From an uncultured SAR86 cluster bacterium (GTDB taxonomy: Bacteria; Pseudomonadota; Gammaproteobacteria; Magnimaribacterales; Magnimaribacteraceae), in assembly GCA_937773605.1 (NCBI GenBank), contig CALJVP010000002.1, positions 62,001 to 126,000 of the forward strand: DNA of 64,000 bases, given 5' to 3'. The notes below the pieces were generated by a model. It worked only from the letters and a program-made list of their open reading frames with translations. It did not search any database and was not told the DNA's origin. Positions 18,724 to 26,656 of this stretch are shown here, piece after piece (position 1 is the first letter of the stretch; each line of letters begins with the position of its first letter). Made by a program: the position numbers and the translations under genes.

Positions 18724-19062
18724 CTAGTGACTCTCGGATACCATGTTAATGGTGTATCTAGGCAGCTCTATTTCTAGATCCTCTTCACCAACTATTATTT
18801 GACAACTTAACCTTGATTGAGATTCAAGACCCCATGCTTTATCTAGCATATCTTCTTCAGCTTCAGATGCTTCATCTAATCCAGAAAAACCTTTCCTCAC
18901 TACCACGTGGCATGTAGTACAAGCACAAGATAATTCACAGGCGTGTTCAATTGAAATACCGTTATCTAAAAGCGTTTCGCAAAGACTTTCGCCGGGAGTA
19001 ACTTCTAATTCAATGCCATCTGGGCAAATCTCCGGATGAGAACCTACCTTTATCTTTGTCAT
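18724..19062 (-). CDS. fdx: ISC-type [2Fe-2S] ferredoxin
   Basis: A 112-residue adrenodoxin-type ferredoxin with the cluster motif HACELSCACTTCHVVV (cysteine spacing C-x5-C-x2-C) and a fourth cysteine in SRLSCQIIVG. Further family features are DMLDKAWGLE and ELPRYTINM. It supplies electrons for cluster assembly on IscU. In relatives hscB and hscA lie between iscA and fdx; here only 23 bases separate the two genes, so the chaperone pair is absent from this operon. Confidence 0.95.
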   Translation of the reverse strand: MTKIKVGSHPEICPDGIELEVTPGESLCETLLDNGISIEHACELSCACTTCHVVVRKGFSGLDEASEAEEDMLDKAWGLESQSRLSCQIIVGEEDLEIELPRYTINMVSESH

Positions 19063-19085
19063 TCTTTAAATAATCTTTATCTAGA

Positions 19086-19454
19086 TTAAATTTCTACTTC
19101 AAAGCTTTCACCACAGCCACAAATTGCTTTCACATTTGGGTTGTGGAATTTGATTCCTTCATTGACTCCATCTCTTTCAAAATCAACTTTCGTTCCTTTA
19201 AGGTACAAAAAAGAGTCGGAATCAATAAACACAGATATCTCATCAAATTTAAATACTAGATCATCCGGGCTCTTAGAATCTACATAATCCAAAGAGTAGG
19301 TATATCCAGAGCAACCTGTAGATTCTGATACTGAGAATCTAATCCCTAAACTTGAATTTTTATTATTCAAATTTTGCTTAAAGTGTTTTATAGCACTAGG
19401 ACTTAATTCAAAACTATTCGGATCAAAGGAACTAGGCTGAGAAAGACTTGTCAT
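19086..19454 (-). CDS. iscA: A-type Fe-S carrier protein
   Basis: A 122-residue HesB/IscA-fold protein with the cysteines in STGCSGYTY and in AICGCGESFEV, the three-cysteine A-type signature. The N-terminus is about 15 residues longer than E. coli IscA (SLSQPSSFDPNSF), and the core resembles IscA and SufA about equally. It delivers [4Fe-4S] clusters to apo-enzymes. The position after iscU argues for iscA. The client load in this window is large: IspG, SdhB, KorABC and FdxA all need clusters. Confidence 0.9.
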   Translation of the reverse strand: MTSLSQPSSFDPNSFELSPSAIKHFKQNLNNKNSSLGIRFSVSESTGCSGYTYSLDYVDSKSPDDLVFKFDEISVFIDSDSFLYLKGTKVDFERDGVNEGIKFHNPNVKAICGCGESFEVEI

Positions 19455-19463
19455 TGTTGTGGC

Positions 19464-19868
19464 TTATATTTTTGATTCGTAATCTTTGATGGCTTGATGA
19501 ATACTATCTTCAGCAAGAACAGAACAATGAATCTTTATGGCCGGAAGTTCAAGAGCATCAACAATATCTTGATTCTTGATTTCTTTTGCTTCTTCTAGAG
19601 TTTTTCCTTTCAACATATCAACTAATTCACTAGAAGAAGCTATTGCTGAGCCGCAACCGTACGTTTTGAATTTCACGTCACTAATAACATGTGAATTATT
19701 TCTTGGTTCACACTTGATTTGTAGCCTCATCACATCACCACAAGCCGGCGCTCCTACCATCCCTGTTCCAATATCAGATTCAGAAGGGTCCCACCTTCCA
19801 ACACTATGCTTTTCTGGCTCCTGTAGAGTTTTTTCAAACTTATCTATTACTTTCTTGCTATATGCCAT
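19464..19868 (-). CDS. iscU: Fe-S cluster scaffold protein IscU
   Basis: A 134-residue scaffold. Cluster ligands are C43 and D45 in GAPACGDVM, C72 in TYGCGSAIASSS and C115 in KIHCSVLAED, all conserved. The HscA-binding loop, normally LPPVK, reads LPAIK (108-112). This change matters because hscA and hscB are missing from the operon. There is also a small insertion near residues 14-28 relative to E. coli IscU. It assembles [2Fe-2S] clusters using sulfur from IscS. Confidence 0.96.
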   Translation of the reverse strand: MAYSKKVIDKFEKTLQEPEKHSVGRWDPSESDIGTGMVGAPACGDVMRLQIKCEPRNNSHVISDVKFKTYGCGSAIASSSELVDMLKGKTLEEAKEIKNQDIVDALELPAIKIHCSVLAEDSIHQAIKDYESKI

Positions 19869-19885
19869 TTTTTTTCCTCAGTTCA

Positions 19886-21100
19886 TTAACTAGTTGACCA
19901 TTCAATCGTATCTAAATCTACTCCATCCTTATACATGTCCCATAAAGGAGATAATTCTCGTAGTTTCTCTACCGCATTCCTTACCAGACCAATCGTATAT
20001 TCAATTTCTTCTTCTGTTGTAAACCTTCCTATGGCAAATCTAATTGAACTGTGGGCTAACTCATCCTTCAATCCAATAGCTCTAAGCACATATGACGGTT
20101 CTAAACTTGCAGAAGTACAGGCTGAGCCTGAAGAAACTGCTATGTCTTTCAAGGCCATTATAAGTGATTCACCCTCAACGTAGTTAAAACTTACGTTAAG
20201 AAACCCTGCCGCCCTATGCTCTGGATCTCCGTTTAGATAAACCTCTTCCATGTCTTTTAGTCCTTCCCAGAATTTATCTCTCAACGATTTTATGCGTATA
20301 TTATCTTCAAACATGTCTTCTTTTGCTATCCTGAAAGCCTCGCCCATTCCAACAATTTGATGGGTAGCTAAAGTGCCAGATCTCATGCCTCTTTCATGGC
20401 CACCTCCATGTATTTGAGCCTCAAGTCTAACTCTAGGTTTTCTTCTTGCGTACATAGCTCCTATTCCCTTAGGACCATAGGTTTTATGAGCAGAAAAAGA
20501 CATTAAGTCTATTTCAAGTTTAGACAAATCGATAGGGAGTTTTCCTGTGCTCTGGGCTGCATCTACATGAAAAATAATACCTTTTTCTCTTGTTATTTTT
20601 CCTATAGATTCAATATCATTTATAACTCCAATTTCATTGTTAATATGCATCAAAGAAACCAGAATTGTTTTGTCTGTAATTGAGTTAAGAACCATCTCTG
20701 GAGTAATTATTCCATTAGAATTGGGGTCCAAATAGCTTATTTCGAACCCTTCTCTTTCTAATTGTCTACAACTATCAAGTACAGCCTTATGTTCGACTTT
20801 TGAAGTAATGATATGGTTCCCTTTAGATTTATTAAATCTTGCAGAGCCTTTAATAGCTAAGTTATCAGATTCAGTAGCACCCGAGGTCCACACTATTTCT
20901 CTAGGGTCACAATTAACCAGACTGGCAACATTAGATCGTGCTTCTTCTGTTGCTTCTTCAGCTTTCCATCCAAAAGAATGAGATCTTGAAGCTGGGTTAC
21001 CAAAATTACCATCCAGAGAAAGGCATTCTTGCATCTTTTTTACAACCCTAGGGTCAGCTGGAGTTGTTGAAGCATAATCGAAATAAATTGGTAATTGCAT
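19886..21100 (-). CDS. iscS: Cysteine desulfurase IscS
   Basis: A 404-residue PLP enzyme beginning [17 protein letters not shown]. The PLP lysine lies in [19 protein letters not shown] and the mobile catalytic cysteine in [18 protein letters not shown]. It converts cysteine to alanine and supplies persulfide sulfur to IscU, TusA (gene at 480-734) and tRNA-modifying enzymes. It sits 4 bases after iscR and 17 before iscU. Confidence 0.97.
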
Positions 21101-21104
21101 TGAT

Positions 21105-21560
21105 TTATCCTGCAGCTATTAGTAGCTTTTTATTGTTGTTTAAAGTCAAACTCTTGTTATTGGAATCTCTTAAGACATCTTCTAAAGATCTGTCCATTAA
21201 AAAAGATTGAACTTGATTATTTAAATCCGTCCATAAATTATGTGCTAAACATTTCGATCCAGCACTACAATTACCTTCTCCTGAACATTGAGTAGCATCC
21301 ATTCTATCTTCCACAGCTGAAATTATTTGTCCTATCTTAATCTCATTGCTTGGTCTAGATAGTTTATATCCTCCACCTGGGCCTCTATGAGAAGTAAGAA
21401 TACCTGCTTTTCTTAAGTTCCTAAATAATTGTTCTAGATATGGTCCAGGAATTGATTGCCTCAATGATAGATCTGCAATAGAAATAAAGTCGTTATTTTC
21501 ATGCATGGCAAGATCTAACGCCGCAGTAACAGCGTATTTACCTTTTGTAGTTAAATGCAT
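21105..21560 (-). CDS. iscR: Fe-S-sensing transcription factor IscR
   Basis: A 151-residue Rrf2-family regulator starting [19 protein letters not shown]. The wing motif [14 protein letters not shown] is intact, and the [2Fe-2S] ligands are three cysteines at five-residue spacing plus a histidine (CSGEGNC...KCLAH), as in E. coli IscR. Holo-IscR represses the isc operon. The promoter overlaps a type-1-like site (21574-21600). The -10 lies only 7 bases before the ATG, with no ribosome site, so the mRNA is probably leaderless. Confidence 0.96.
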
Positions 21561-21567
21561 GTGGGGT

Positions 21568-21600
21568 ATTTTATATTCTTGACAAGATTTGTCAAGAATA
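21568..21600 (-). promoter_or_regulatory. iscR promoter with overlapping IscR type-1-like operator
   Basis: A perfect inverted repeat with 12-base arms and a 3-base centre spans 21574-21600 (TATTCTTGACAA / TTGTCAAGAATA). The inner 25 bases match the E. coli IscR type-1 consensus at about 20 of 25 positions by hand alignment. The same bases provide a perfect -35 TTGACA (21595-21590), and a TAAAAT -10 follows after 16 bases (21573-21568). IscR bound here would block RNA polymerase, giving autorepression. Confidence 0.7.
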
Positions 21601-21622
21601 GGTACACATAGTCAATTAAAAA

Positions 21623-21636
21623 AGGTACATGTACCT
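21623..21636. promoter_or_regulatory. Perfect 14-base palindrome between iscR and the kor operon
   Basis: AGGTACATGTACCT is fully self-complementary with no spacer and lies in the 199-base divergent region, 124 bases before the korC-like start. Related GGTACA and TGTACC words recur at 21601-21606 and 21707-21712. It could be an operator for an unidentified dimeric regulator, or a leftover from the mobile element that may have donated the korC N-terminus. Confidence 0.4.
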
Positions 21637-21723
21637 GTATTATTAGCAGTAATTGATATTTATTTCCAATTATTTATACAAAGTGCTTTCAAATATGGTT
21701 ATATTGTGTACCATATGTTGGGG

Positions 21724-21738
21724 ATTCAAACTTTGAAT
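21724..21738. promoter_or_regulatory. 15-base inverted repeat just upstream of the kor operon
   Basis: ATTCAAA-C-TTTGAAT, with seven-base perfect arms around one central base, lies 21 bases before the korC-like ATG, and a TATATT -10-like word occurs near 21699. It would fall in the 5' untranslated region or start of transcription. Either an operator or a small RNA hairpin is possible. Confidence 0.35.
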
Positions 21739-21759
21739 AAACTAAATTAAGAAAATAGT

Positions 21760-23775
21760 ATGGATACTAGATATCTTTTTAAAAGGTACAACACTTGGTG
21801 GGTTAAGTTAGCTGTACCTAGAACTTTAAGAGAACAACTTGGTTACGATTTAAGAGAATCTCTTAAAACTCACGATCTAGAAAAGGCTAAAGAGCTTAGA
21901 TGGGAAGTTGTAGATAATCTCAAAAATAAGATTGAGATTGCGAAGCATCAATTAGATCCTGCACCTGTAGAAGGTCTACCTAAAACTCCTGTGGAGAAAT
22001 TCTTGCCTCCAACAGATGTAAAAGACCCTCAGTACTATCATAAAGTAGTTGATTGTCAGCATGCCTGCCCTGCTCATACCCCTGTACCAGAGTACATAAG
22101 ACAGATTGCTCAAGGAAATTACAACGAAGCTTATATGATGAATTGGGAATCGAATGTTTTTCCTGGTATTTTAGGAAGAACTTGTGACAGGCCTTGCGAG
22201 CCTGCTTGCAGAAGAGTAAGAACTCATGATAAGGCAGTTGCTATTTGCAGACTCAAAAGAGTTACTTATGATTATAAAGATGAAATATCTAGTTTATTGC
22301 CTACAGCCCCTGAATCAAATGGTAAAAGAATTGCACTAATAGGAGGAGGTCCTGCCTCACTGACTGTAGCCAGAGACCTCGTCCTTATGGGCTATCAGTG
22401 CGTTTTATTTGAAAGAGATAAAAGAGCTGGTGGTCTTATGCGAACAAATATCCCCTCTTTTAGATTGCCTGAAGAAGTCCTTAATGAAGAAGTAGATCAA
22501 ATAATTAATCTTGGTATAGAAACTCGCTTCAACACAGAGATAACGAGTATGAAAGAGCTTCTTAATGAAGACTTTGATGCAATATTTGTCGGAACCGGAG
22601 CTCCTAAAGGGAGAGATATCAATATAGAAGGAAGAGAAGAAGCTAAAAAAAGTATACATATTGGAATTGATTGGCTTACTAGCATTGCCTTTGAACATAC
22701 AAAATCTATAGGTAAGAAAGTTATTGTTCTCGGAGGAGGAAATACAGCTATGGACTGCTGTAGAACCTCTATAAGACTTGGAGCTGATGATGTAAAGGTG
22801 ACTGTAAGGAGTCCTTTTGATCAAATGAAAGCGTCTGAATGGGAAATTGAAGATGCAATGAATGAAGACATACCAATCTATGATAATCATGTACCAAAGA
22901 AATTTATTATCCAAAATAATAAATTAGTTGGTATGGAATTTGAGAAAGTTGAAGCTAAATTTGATGACAACGGAAAACGGTCTCTAGTACCAACAGGAGA
23001 GGATCCTGTAATTTTTGAATGTGATGATGTTCTTGTTGCTATTGGACAAGATAATGCATTTGAGTGGATTGAAAGAGACATTGGAATAGAATTTGGTGAA
23101 TGGGATATGCCAATTGTCGATAAAATTACCTTTCAATCAACAAATCCAAAAATATTCTTTGGAGGTGATGCTGCTTGGGGACCTGAGAATATTATCTGGG
23201 CTGCTGCACATGGACATCAAGCTGCTATATCAATAGATAAATTCTGTAATGAGAACGATCTCTATGAAAGACCAGAACCCGGAACTACTCTTGTTAGCCA
23301 AAAAATGGGGGTGCATGAATGGTCCTATGATAATGACATATCGCAAGCAAGTAGGTTATTAGTACCTCATGCAGATAAGACAATTGCCCTAAAAGATTTA
23401 AAGATGGAAGTTGAATTAGGTTTTGACGAACAAATGGCTTTGGACGAAGCTAATAGGTGCCTCAATTGTGATGTACAGACTGTATTCTCAGAAGAGTTAT
23501 GTATTGAGTGTGATGCTTGCGTAGACATATGCCCTACAGACTGTATTAATTTTATATCCAATGGAACAGAAGAAGAAGTAAGGAATAGTTTAAGAATACC
23601 TGCCTTAAACTTAAACCAAGATATTCTTGTTTCAGATAATCTCCTTCAAACAGCAAGAGTTATGATTAAAGATGAAGATGTCTGTCTCCACTGCGGTTTA
23701 TGTGCTGAAAGATGTCCGACAGGGGCATGGGATATGCAAAATTTCTTATATGAGGAGGCTAAAGCTTATTCATGA
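21760..23775 (+). CDS. NAD(P)H-linked, GltD-like Fe-S flavoprotein subunit of 2-oxoacid oxidoreductase (KorC type), with integrase-like N-terminus
   Basis: 671 residues in four parts. (1) Residues 1-60 (YLFKRYNTWWVKLAVPRTLR, ESLKTHDLEKAKELR) resemble the N-terminal domain of phage-type tyrosine recombinases (DUF6538-like), not any flavoprotein. (2) About 90-170: GltD-type Fe-S domain, cysteines 99, 103, 142, 146, 150. (3) About 188-495: FAD loop GGGPAS (195-200), NADP loop GGGNTA (325-330) and GGDAAWG. (4) About 565-660: ferredoxin part with C581, C584, C587, C591 and C642, C645, C648, C652. It probably passes electrons from the 2-oxoacid-oxidising subunits to NAD(P)+, as in the KorABC 2-oxoglutarate:NADP+ oxidoreductase known from Azoarcus/Thauera. 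The stop overlaps the next gene by 4 bases (ATGA). The cofactor (NAD or NADP) is not settled. Confidence 0.8.
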   Translation: MDTRYLFKRYNTWWVKLAVPRTLREQLGYDLRESLKTHDLEKAKELRWEVVDNLKNKIEIAKHQLDPAPVEGLPKTPVEKFLPPTDVKDPQYYHKVVDCQHACPAHTPVPEYIRQIAQGNYNEAYMMNWESNVFPGILGRTCDRPCEPACRRVRTHDKAVAICRLKRVTYDYKDEISSLLPTAPESNGKRIALIGGGPASLTVARDLVLMGYQCVLFERDKRAGGLMRTNIPSFRLPEEVLNEEVDQIINLGIETRFNTEITSMKELLNEDFDAIFVGTGAPKGRDINIEGREEAKKSIHIGIDWLTSIAFEHTKSIGKKVIVLGGGNTAMDCCRTSIRLGADDVKVTVRSPFDQMKASEWEIEDAMNEDIPIYDNHVPKKFIIQNNKLVGMEFEKVEAKFDDNGKRSLVPTGEDPVIFECDDVLVAIGQDNAFEWIERDIGIEFGEWDMPIVDKITFQSTNPKIFFGGDAAWGPENIIWAAAHGHQAAISIDKFCNENDLYERPEPGTTLVSQKMGVHEWSYDNDISQASRLLVPHADKTIALKDLKMEVELGFDEQMALDEANRCLNCDVQTVFSEELCIECDACVDICPTDCINFISNGTEEEVRNSLRIPALNLNQDILVSDNLLQTARVMIKDEDVCLHCGLCAERCPTGAWDMQNFLYEEAKAYS

Positions 23776-25589
23776 AGAAAATAGAATCAGTAAATGACTT
23801 TGTAATTAAATTTGCTAATGTAAATGGGTCGGGTTCAGCTAGCGCAAACCAAATGTTTGCGAAAGGAGTTTTTCGTTCAGGGATACCAGTTAGTCCAAAA
23901 AATATTTTTCCTTCTAACATTCAAGGTCTACCAACTTGGTTCGAAGTGAGAGTCAATGAAAAAGGATATCTTGGCAGAAGAGAGGGTATAGATATTTCTG
24001 TTGCCATGAACCCTCAATCCTACGGCGAGGATATTAAAGAACTAAGATCGGGTGGATATTTAATTTATGACTCTTCTTGGAAACGAGATTTTGGAAGAGA
24101 AGATATAAATGTTCTTGGAATTCCTCTAACAGAACTTTGCGTCAATGAATTCTCCAACCCTAAACAAAGATTACTCTTTAAAAATCTAGGTTATGTAGGT
24201 GTTCTTGCTTCAATACTTGAGATGGATAAAGATATTTATATAACTCTTATCAATGAACAGTTTAAAGGTAAAGAGAAATTAATAGAACCAAACGTTAAAG
24301 CCTTAGAAATAGGTTATTCTTATGCAGAAGAGAACTTCAAAGGTTTATGTGATATCAAAGTCAATAAATCAGATAAAACAGAAGGGCTAATATTAACAAG
24401 TGGTAATGATGCAGCTGGTTTAGGCTGTGTTTATGGCGGAGCTACCTTTTGCGCTTGGTATCCTATAACACCTTCTACATCACTTGCAGAGTCTTATAGT
24501 AATTACAGCGAGAAATTACGAATAGAAATAGGAACTGATAAAAATAAATTTGCATTTATTCAAGCTGAAGATGAGCTGGCAGCAATTGGAATGACCATTG
24601 GAGCAAATTGGAATGGGGCTAGAGGGTTTACAGCAACTAGCGGCCCAGGAATATCTCTTATGAGTGAATTTATTGGACTGGCTTATTTTGCAGAAGTGCC
24701 TTCAGTAATTTTTGATGTACAACGAGGAGGTCCATCAACTGGAATGCCAACAAGAACACAGCAATCAGATCTCCTGGCATGCGCTTATGCTTCTCACGGA
24801 GATACCAAGCATGTTCTGTTAATTCCTTCGGATCCTAAAGAGTGCTTTGATTTCTCTATAGAGGCCTTTGATTTAGCCGATAGACTGCAAACTCCTGTAA
24901 TGGTCTTATTAGATTTAGATTTAGGAATGAATGACTGGTCAACTAAAGAATTTGATTGGGATGATTCTAAAGAATATGACAGAGGGAAAGTATTATCTAA
25001 GGAAGATCTGGATGGTATGGAAAAATTTGGTCGATACCTTGATGTTGATGGAGATGGTATACCCTATAGAACTTATCCTGGAACCCATCCAGACAAAGGG
25101 GCCTACTTCACTAGAGGGACATCTCATGATGAGTACGCAAGATATACAGAGGACGGAGATAAAAATGCTGAAGTCTTGTCTAGGTTACTAAAGAAATACC
25201 AAACAGCTTCTGAGCTTGTACCTAAGCCAGTTTTTAATCAAGAAGAAAGCACTAGCTCAATAGGAATAATATATTTCGGAAGTACTGATTGCTCTATGCA
25301 AGAAACACTTGATCAACTTGATGAAGAAAACCTGAATGTAGATGCCATGAGGCTGCGTGCTTTCCCTTTTAATTTAGAAGTATGGGAATTTATAGAAGAT
25401 CATGACCTATTGTTCATCGTAGAACAAAATAGAGATGGTCAAATGAGAACCTTAATTATGGCCGAAGGTGGAATTATTCCAGATAAATTAGTATCCATCT
25501 TGTGTTTTGATGGCCAACCTATAACCGCCTCCTACATAAAGAATAAAATCAATGCTCACCTGTCAGGTGTTCCAGCAAAAATAGCTTAA
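23772..25589 (+). CDS. korA: 2-oxoacid:acceptor oxidoreductase, fused gamma-alpha subunit (KorA type)
   Basis: 605 residues. The gamma domain (about 1-190, with NGSGSASANQMFAKGVFRSGIPV) is joined to the alpha domain (about 203-600). The alpha domain contains the pyrimidine-binding motif YPITPST (230-236), ATSGPGISLMSEFIGLA and QRGGPSTGMPTRTQQSD, which binds the substrate carboxylate in this family. With KorB it decarboxylates a 2-oxoacid with CoA, giving acyl-CoA and two electrons. The gamma-alpha fusion and length are as in 2-oxoglutarate ferredoxin oxidoreductases. Because sucAB-lpd are missing from the TCA operon, 2-oxoglutarate is the most likely substrate, but a branched-chain or other 2-oxoacid is not excluded. 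Confidence 0.88.
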   Translation: MKKIESVNDFVIKFANVNGSGSASANQMFAKGVFRSGIPVSPKNIFPSNIQGLPTWFEVRVNEKGYLGRREGIDISVAMNPQSYGEDIKELRSGGYLIYDSSWKRDFGREDINVLGIPLTELCVNEFSNPKQRLLFKNLGYVGVLASILEMDKDIYITLINEQFKGKEKLIEPNVKALEIGYSYAEENFKGLCDIKVNKSDKTEGLILTSGNDAAGLGCVYGGATFCAWYPITPSTSLAESYSNYSEKLRIEIGTDKNKFAFIQAEDELAAIGMTIGANWNGARGFTATSGPGISLMSEFIGLAYFAEVPSVIFDVQRGGPSTGMPTRTQQSDLLACAYASHGDTKHVLLIPSDPKECFDFSIEAFDLADRLQTPVMVLLDLDLGMNDWSTKEFDWDDSKEYDRGKVLSKEDLDGMEKFGRYLDVDGDGIPYRTYPGTHPDKGAYFTRGTSHDEYARYTEDGDKNAEVLSRLLKKYQTASELVPKPVFNQEESTSSIGIIYFGSTDCSMQETLDQLDEENLNVDAMRLRAFPFNLEVWEFIEDHDLLFIVEQNRDGQMRTLIMAEGGIIPDKLVSILCFDGQPITASYIKNKINAHLSGVPAKIA

Positions 25590-25600
25590 TAGAGAAAAAG

Positions 25601-26656
25601 ATGACTTATATTACCAAACCAATAAACCATCATCCCAGATTAGAAACTAACAAGTTGGGTTTAACAAGAAGAGACTATGAAGGTGCAGTCTCTACTTTAT
25701 GTGCAGGATGTGGGCATGATTCTATCAGCGCAGCAATTGTTGAAGCTTGTTTTCAATTAAGCATAGAAGCTTATCGCGTTGCTAAACTATCAGGTATAGG
25801 CTGCTCCTCTAAAGCTCCTGCTTATTTTTTAAACCAATCTCATGGTTTTAATTCAGTTCACGGAAGGATGCCTTCAATTGCTACTGGAGCAGCTATGGCT
25901 AATCATGAATTACTGTATTTAGGAGTATCGGGCGATGGAGACAGTGCCTCAATAGGAATAGGTCAATTTATTCATTGCGCCAGAAGGCAATTAAATATGA
26001 CTTACTTTGTTGAAAATAACGGAACATACGGCCTTACTAAAGGCCAATTCTCAGCTACCAATGATCTAGAATCAAAGAGTAAATATGGAGATGAAAACCT
26101 ATTTCCTGCCATCGACTTGCCTAGTATGGCAATACAGCTTGGAGCTAGTTTCGTAGCCAGAAGCTTTTCCGGAGACAGAGATCAATTAGTTCCTTTGATT
26201 AAAGCTGCAATGTGTCACAAAGGTTTTTCTCTATTAGATATTATCTCTCCTTGTGTAACTTTTAATAATCATAACACTTCAACAAAGAGCTATGATTACA
26301 TAAGGGAACATAACGAAGCTTTATCTAAGCCAGATTTTGTCCCTTTAGGTAAAGAAATAACAACTAGTTACGAACCGGGAGAAAGTTCTGAAGTTTCTTT
26401 GCATGACGGTTCAACTTTATCTTTAACTAAGCTTGCTCTAGATTACGACCCCACTGATAAAATAATAGCCATAAAAAATATCCAAGAATCACAAAGGGAT
26501 GGAAAGGTACTTACCGGGCTTCTTTATGCAGATCCAAGTGCTAAAGACTTAAAAGAGATATTGAATATTACCGATCAGCCTTTAAATACACTAACTCAAG
26601 AACAATTGTGTCCTGGTAAATCAGCTCTAAAAGACATAAACGACAACCTGAAATAA
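25601..26656 (+). CDS. korB: 2-oxoacid:acceptor oxidoreductase, TPP-binding beta subunit (KorB type)
   Basis: 351 residues. An N-terminal CAGCGHDSISAAIVEA with GIGCSSK provides cluster cysteines. The TPP/Mg motif GDGDSASIGIGQFIHCARR is followed by VENNGTYGLTKGQFSAT. Later DIISPCVTFNNH supplies another conserved cysteine. It binds thiamine diphosphate and the proximal [4Fe-4S] cluster and pairs with KorA. It starts 11 bases after korA. It ends 8 bases before the convergent purC end, with no terminator hairpin between them. Confidence 0.9.
   Translation: MTYITKPINHHPRLETNKLGLTRRDYEGAVSTLCAGCGHDSISAAIVEACFQLSIEAYRVAKLSGIGCSSKAPAYFLNQSHGFNSVHGRMPSIATGAAMANHELLYLGVSGDGDSASIGIGQFIHCARRQLNMTYFVENNGTYGLTKGQFSATNDLESKSKYGDENLFPAIDLPSMAIQLGASFVARSFSGDRDQLVPLIKAAMCHKGFSLLDIISPCVTFNNHNTSTKSYDYIREHNEALSKPDFVPLGKEITTSYEPGESSEVSLHDGSTLSLTKLALDYDPTDKIIAIKNIQESQRDGKVLTGLLYADPSAKDLKEILNITDQPLNTLTQEQLCPGKSALKDINDNLK

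Follow-up and report, generated by a model that had tools for sequence, protein, structure and literature searches.

An integrase-derived domain as the probable regulator of its own Fe-S enzyme operon at the iscR-kor locus of SAR86 bacteria

In the SAR86 genome studied here, iscR, which starts at 21560 on the minus strand, and kor, an operon of three 2-oxoacid oxidoreductase genes starting at 21760 on the plus strand, diverge from 199 bp of DNA, which raises the question of whether the two are controlled together or separately. The genome's close relatives in a named collection are MAGs and single cells of SAR86. Positions refer to the window, the 64,000-nucleotide stretch that was analysed, and its features are collected in Table 1. 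The initial annotation proposed co-regulation of both genes from one shared region. The explanation that we consider likely is one of two independent controls placed back to back. The iscR side would be under ordinary isc autoregulation through a predicted IscR site. On the kor side, an integrase-derived domain, DUF6538, fused together with its sites to an Fe-S enzyme, would regulate its own gene, probably by repression.

Table 1. Features of the iscR-kor locus (window coordinates)
Feature	Position	Strand	Remarks
Rest of isc operon: iscS, iscU, iscA-like, ferredoxin	18724..21100	-	ORFs; names from translated sequences
iscR	21105..21560	-	Rrf2-family regulator; three Cys and one His of IscR cluster ligation; PF02082 2.5e-36
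iscR promoter TTGACA-16-TAAAAT	21568..21595	-	11/12 consensus matches
IscR type-1-like site	21575..21599	.	core of the 27-base repeat 21574-21600; overlaps iscR -35
Box 1, AGGTACA	21600..21606	+	in the three g1 genomes; absent from most other genera
Boxes 2a/2b, palindrome AGGTACATGTACCT	21623..21636	.	core GGTACATGTACC in 15/20 genomes
Box 3, TGTACCAT	21707..21714	-	20/20 genomes, 49-61 nt upstream of kor start
15-base inverted repeat	21724..21738	.	chance, outside the system; 1/20 genomes
Kor reductase	21760..23775	+	DUF6538, GltD-like NAD(P)-binding flavoprotein and 4Fe-4S ferredoxin domain; Pfam/NCBIfam
DUF6538 domain of Kor reductase (residues 5-56)	21772..21927	+	PF20172 36.2 bits, cut-off 27; proposed box reader
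Two more GGTACA words within DUF6538 coding sequence	21784..21819	+	21784 AGGTACA, 21813 TGTACCT
2-oxoacid:acceptor oxidoreductase alpha/gamma subunit	23772..25589	+	TIGR03710 580 bits, over cut-off
2-oxoacid:acceptor oxidoreductase beta subunit	25601..26656	+	best TIGR02177, under its cut-off

The identity of iscS was confirmed by homologues, and the best NCBIfam match of the IscR protein is TIGR02010 (169 bits, under its cut-off of 207.6). For conservation, 20 same-family genomes were aligned, the window's own counted in; all keep the divergent iscR-kor order, with an intergenic length of 179-297 bp. The three inverted repeats reported by the initial annotation are all present. The first, at 21574-21600, has perfect 12-bp arms around a 3-nt centre and is the sole such repeat in 64 kb, where shuffles give 0. 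The palindrome at 21623-21636 and the repeat ATTCAAACTTTGAAT at 21724-21738 are likewise perfect, with 7-bp arms and, in the latter, a 1-nt centre. Repeats with 7-bp arms are unremarkable by length: the window contains 8 with no gap versus 6.2 in shuffles, and 13 with a gap of 0-1 versus 13.4. Only the 27-base repeat is improbable by length alone. The initial annotation had made its reading depend on conservation of the repeats in close relatives. The IscR-like site is found in 20/20 genomes and the palindrome core in 15/20; lack of conservation is confined to the 15-base repeat, which occurs in the window's own genome alone and was rejected as an operator for that reason. The three repeats are three different things.

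The 27-base repeat had been read as an IscR type-1-like site over the iscR promoter, and this holds. Its core matches the E. coli consensus ATASYYGACTRWWWYAGTCRRSTAT at 20 of 25 positions, the best score in the window, and the counterparts in all 20 same-family genomes match at 20-22 of 25; in the source of the consensus (PMC3899308), characterised P. aeruginosa IscR sites match it at 68-76%. The site covers the iscR -35 hexamer TTGACA at 21590-21595. Since the -10 hexamer TAAAAT ends 7 nt ahead of the ATG (21560-21573), and a -10-like hexamer, TATAAT in several cases, lies at a similar distance in relatives, the iscR mRNA is probably leaderless. [2Fe-2S]-IscR would repress its own promoter through this one site. 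The arrangement resembles isc autoregulation in E. coli and Pseudomonas aeruginosa, in which a type-1-like site also lies over the iscR promoter heading iscR-iscS-iscU-iscA-fdx; unlike in those bacteria, one site is seen here, the promoter is probably leaderless and the divergent partner is a Kor operon with boxes of its own (PMC3899308). Four relatives of genus g6 (L007, L008, L013 and L015) carry a near-perfect Fur box (17/19) between iscR and kor, which is absent from the intergenic region of the window's genome.

The recurring GGTAC/GTACC words noted by the initial annotation are more frequent in the region than expected by chance and, together with the 14-base palindrome, appear to be conserved operator-like boxes with the core GGTACA. 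Of the 27 copies of GGTACA/TGTACC in the 64 kb, 6 lie within 21601-21818, and 5 of the 115 copies of AGGTACA in the window's 1.3 Mb genome fall within 220 bp at iscR-kor. The 5/20 genomes that lack the palindrome core keep a single TGTACC box instead. Box 3 overlaps the likely kor -10 hexamer (TACCAT), and in many of the 20 genomes a -35-like TTTCAA/TTGGTA can be recognised by eye about 16-17 bp upstream of it. The two words inside the DUF6538 coding sequence may be coding coincidences because they lie on conserved codons (KRYN and AVP). Other copies of GGTACATGTACC in the genomes searched (L039-L042) were considered as regulon members and rejected, as they lie inside unrelated coding sequences.

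The Kor reductase begins with DUF6538, a basic domain (pI 9.4) whose mean pairwise identity is 0.69 over residues 1-58 versus 0.20 in the linker that follows. Elsewhere DUF6538 is found N-terminal to the Phage_integrase domains of tyrosine integrases, and both domains occur together in L138 and L185. The window's Kor reductase has no Phage_integrase catalytic domain by Pfam and is therefore not an integrase. In the order, 94 of 151 genomes have a DUF6538 match, one per genome, and its carrier varies. It is the Kor reductase in f1, part of f3 (another family of the same order) and several g18 genomes; among full-length matches within the order, no Kor orthologue without DUF6538 was seen. In ten f3 genomes read, the carrier is IscS (L021, L132, L135-L137, L141-L144 and L147), heading iscU and ferredoxin (seen downstream in L132 and L135) where iscR otherwise stands. 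In genus g15 it is the Rieske protein PetA (L129, L130 and L140), with GGGTACA boxes upstream. In other f2 genera DUF6538 stands alone, in proteins 147-170 aa long that have a hydrophobic anchor at the C-terminus (L128, L131, L133, L134, L139 and L146), as if they were membrane-tethered DNA-binding proteins. G147 carries the domain on a true tyrosine integrase and, outside SAR86, two gammaproteobacteria carry it on KorA.

Neither DUF6538 nor iscR has a match in the same-family genomes G007 (1 contig), G005, G017, G021, G114, G121 and G020; their Kor reductase matches are GltD-like paralogues only, with an additional Kor fragment in G020. A SAR86-like DUF6538-Kor gene lies on a 'Cytophagales' MAG contig (L233), which is probably mis-binned. 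A scan of viral contigs yielded no relatives of the SAR86 domain, a profile search of PDB chains returned nothing relevant and an hhalign alignment of DUF6538 with PF13356 gave no profile match. DUF6538 is named in no paper of the literature searched.

The domain and the boxes are strongly linked in the sequences compared. GGTACA is found within 250 nt upstream of 69/69 DUF6538 genes examined from SAR86 and two other gammaproteobacteria, with 198 boxes in 17,250 upstream nt versus 64 in 230,331 nt of the same loci, a 41-fold enrichment, although many of the 69 genes are close relatives and the counts are not independent. The box-bearing carriers are of six kinds: Kor reductase, IscS, Rieske PetA, KorA, the membrane-anchored stub and a real integrase. 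In an unbiased count of upstream 6-mers over 21 representatives, GGTACA ranks first, in 21/21. Because of the relatedness among the 69 genes, this count and the integrase comparison below are the stronger evidence. Among 15 Kor orthologues without DUF6538, all from other lineages, 13 have no box, and none was found at a divergent integrase within the order (L145).

The association extends to 104 DUF6538 integrase-type genes from Proteobacteria other than SAR86. Their top upstream 6-mer is GGTACA (26 versus 2.0 expected, p 1e-21) and their top 7-mer TGGTACA (21 versus 0.5, p 4e-28). The p-values carry no correction for multiple k-mers, of which there are 2,080 canonical 6-mers and 8,192 7-mers; the ranking is unaffected by this. 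Only about a quarter of these genes have GGTACA within 100 nt upstream; after removal of similar upstream regions, 23/95 are still positive. The boxes include 7 tandem pairs exactly 13 bp apart, and 27/32 have the same orientation. As a control we used integrases with the PF13356 arm domain (59 genes, enlarged from a first set of 20). TGGTACA is found in 1/59 of these versus 21/104 DUF6538 genes (Fisher p 5e-4), and GGTATC/GATACC lies upstream of 17/59 (L380-L449) versus 2/104 in the DUF6538 set (p 5e-7). Bare GGTACA is less discriminating, being only weakly rarer in the controls (7/59, p 0.067). It thus seems that the genes of each arm-domain family are accompanied by a word particular to that family, which is what is expected if the domain reads that word. 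The domains of tyrosine integrases that read arm sites sit N-terminally. DUF6538 resembles them in being N-terminal and in having repeated short sites beside the encoding gene, and its position and boxes suggest an arm-site function; its Kor, IscS and PetA carriers differ in being without a recombinase catalytic domain.

These observations are best accommodated if DUF6538 is the N-terminal part of a tyrosine integrase family with the same boxes beside its own genes and if, in SAR86, a metabolic enzyme acquired it by fusion along with its sites. The GGTACA boxes (21600, 21623-21636 and 21707) would then be operators read by the Kor reductase's own DUF6538. The protein joins enzyme and domain in one chain (Pfam) and would bind DNA through the latter, and a conserved candidate operator is present at its own promoter, which it would most likely shut, with negative feedback on the Fe-S enzyme operon as the result. 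From the boxes, their conservation, the domain and its association with the boxes over six kinds of protein and the integrases, we infer physical binding, autoregulation and, in preference to activation, repression. Two features favour repression: the overlap of box 3 with the likely kor -10, and the frequent position of boxes 8-50 nt before the start codon in other carriers.

An alternative is that a separate SAR86 transcription factor reads the boxes, and that the DUF6538 coding start and its promoter moved together between genes. As the domain is always N-terminal, the promoter could have travelled along with it, and paired boxes are also found at ccmA, a gene without DUF6538. Against this, DUF6538 integrases from many Proteobacteria are accompanied by the same word although these bacteria have no SAR86 host factor in common, and the word at PF13356 integrases is another one. 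We consider such a factor unlikely.

Control of both iscR and the Kor operon by IscR from the shared region, the earlier reading, fares worse. It draws on the conserved type-1-like site between the genes and on the richness of the Kor operon in Fe-S clusters. However, that site overlaps the iscR promoter and lies some 160 bp away from where kor starts, a point near which no IscR-like site was seen. In f3, moreover, iscS is directly divergent from kor with no iscR at the locus, and several AGGTACA boxes are still present upstream of kor. The boxes thus appear to follow the DUF6538 domain and not iscR, and their persistence where iscR is missing makes IscR control of kor very improbable. Least probable is that an integrated element left the boxes behind as relics of its arm sites, with no present function: DUF6538 integrase genes are indeed flanked by the same boxes, but relics would decay, and the SAR86 boxes are kept across families while the intervening sequence has diverged. 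The initial annotation had suggested that the other palindromes bind a second regulator or are leftovers of the element that supplied the integrase-like N-terminus. In outline, a second regulator tied to that N-terminus agrees with the self-regulation by DUF6538 preferred here; decaying leftovers do not agree with boxes at 69/69 genes.

Self-regulation through DUF6538 might not be confined to the carrier's own operon. The hisI-ccmAB interval of G000, G002, G004 and G008, which represent three genera, contains paired TGTACC boxes (L095:1056-1072; also L149, L175 and L161), and that of G001 a degenerate form. These boxes, found post hoc, are absent from the genomes read of genera g4, g5 and g6 and of f3, and most f1 genera with DUF6538 also lack them, so that genomes without the domain give no informative contrast at this locus. 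The ccmAB genes are a possible second target, and action of the fused enzyme in trans would follow if this regulon is real. At ccmA the box covers the -35 region and is followed by a conserved -10, a placement that would suit an activator and makes activation a less favoured possibility. In the window's genome, paired TGTACC boxes also stand directly before a GNAT gene that is divergent to a TonB-dependent receptor gene (L096:1008-1032).

Enzymes that regulate their own genes have precedents. PutA is an autogenous 'trigger' enzyme carrying a DNA-binding domain. The Kor reductase likewise combines a metabolic enzyme with a putative DNA-binding domain and has candidate operators at its own promoter; it differs from PutA in that DUF6538 comes from an integrase family and has the same site at several Fe-S-related proteins that are otherwise unrelated. 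AP2 transcription factors have been proposed to derive from the DNA-binding domains of mobile elements. The proposed history of DUF6538 is similar in that a mobile-element domain would have been recruited for host gene control, and different in that it is bacterial, involves fusion to enzymes and has apparently retained the ancestral site.

A broader and more speculative view, which we hold only tentatively, is that DUF6538 with its GGTACA sites is a floating regulator. Kept as a single copy in the genomes of most SAR86 lineages, it may move between carriers (Kor reductase, IscS, Rieske PetA and the membrane anchor), take over the operon of each, act in trans, for example on ccmAB, and, at isc loci that have lost iscR, serve as the Fe-S regulator in place of IscR. 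SAR86 is among the most abundant marine bacterial groups and is hard to study genetically. With this analysis DUF6538 acquires a proposed function and, in GGTACA, a proposed recognition word. The predicted operator can be tested directly, and the word gives a means of locating the arm sites of DUF6538 integrases in general. The analysis also suggests that DNA-binding parts of mobile elements have been reused to control core Fe-S metabolism in SAR86.
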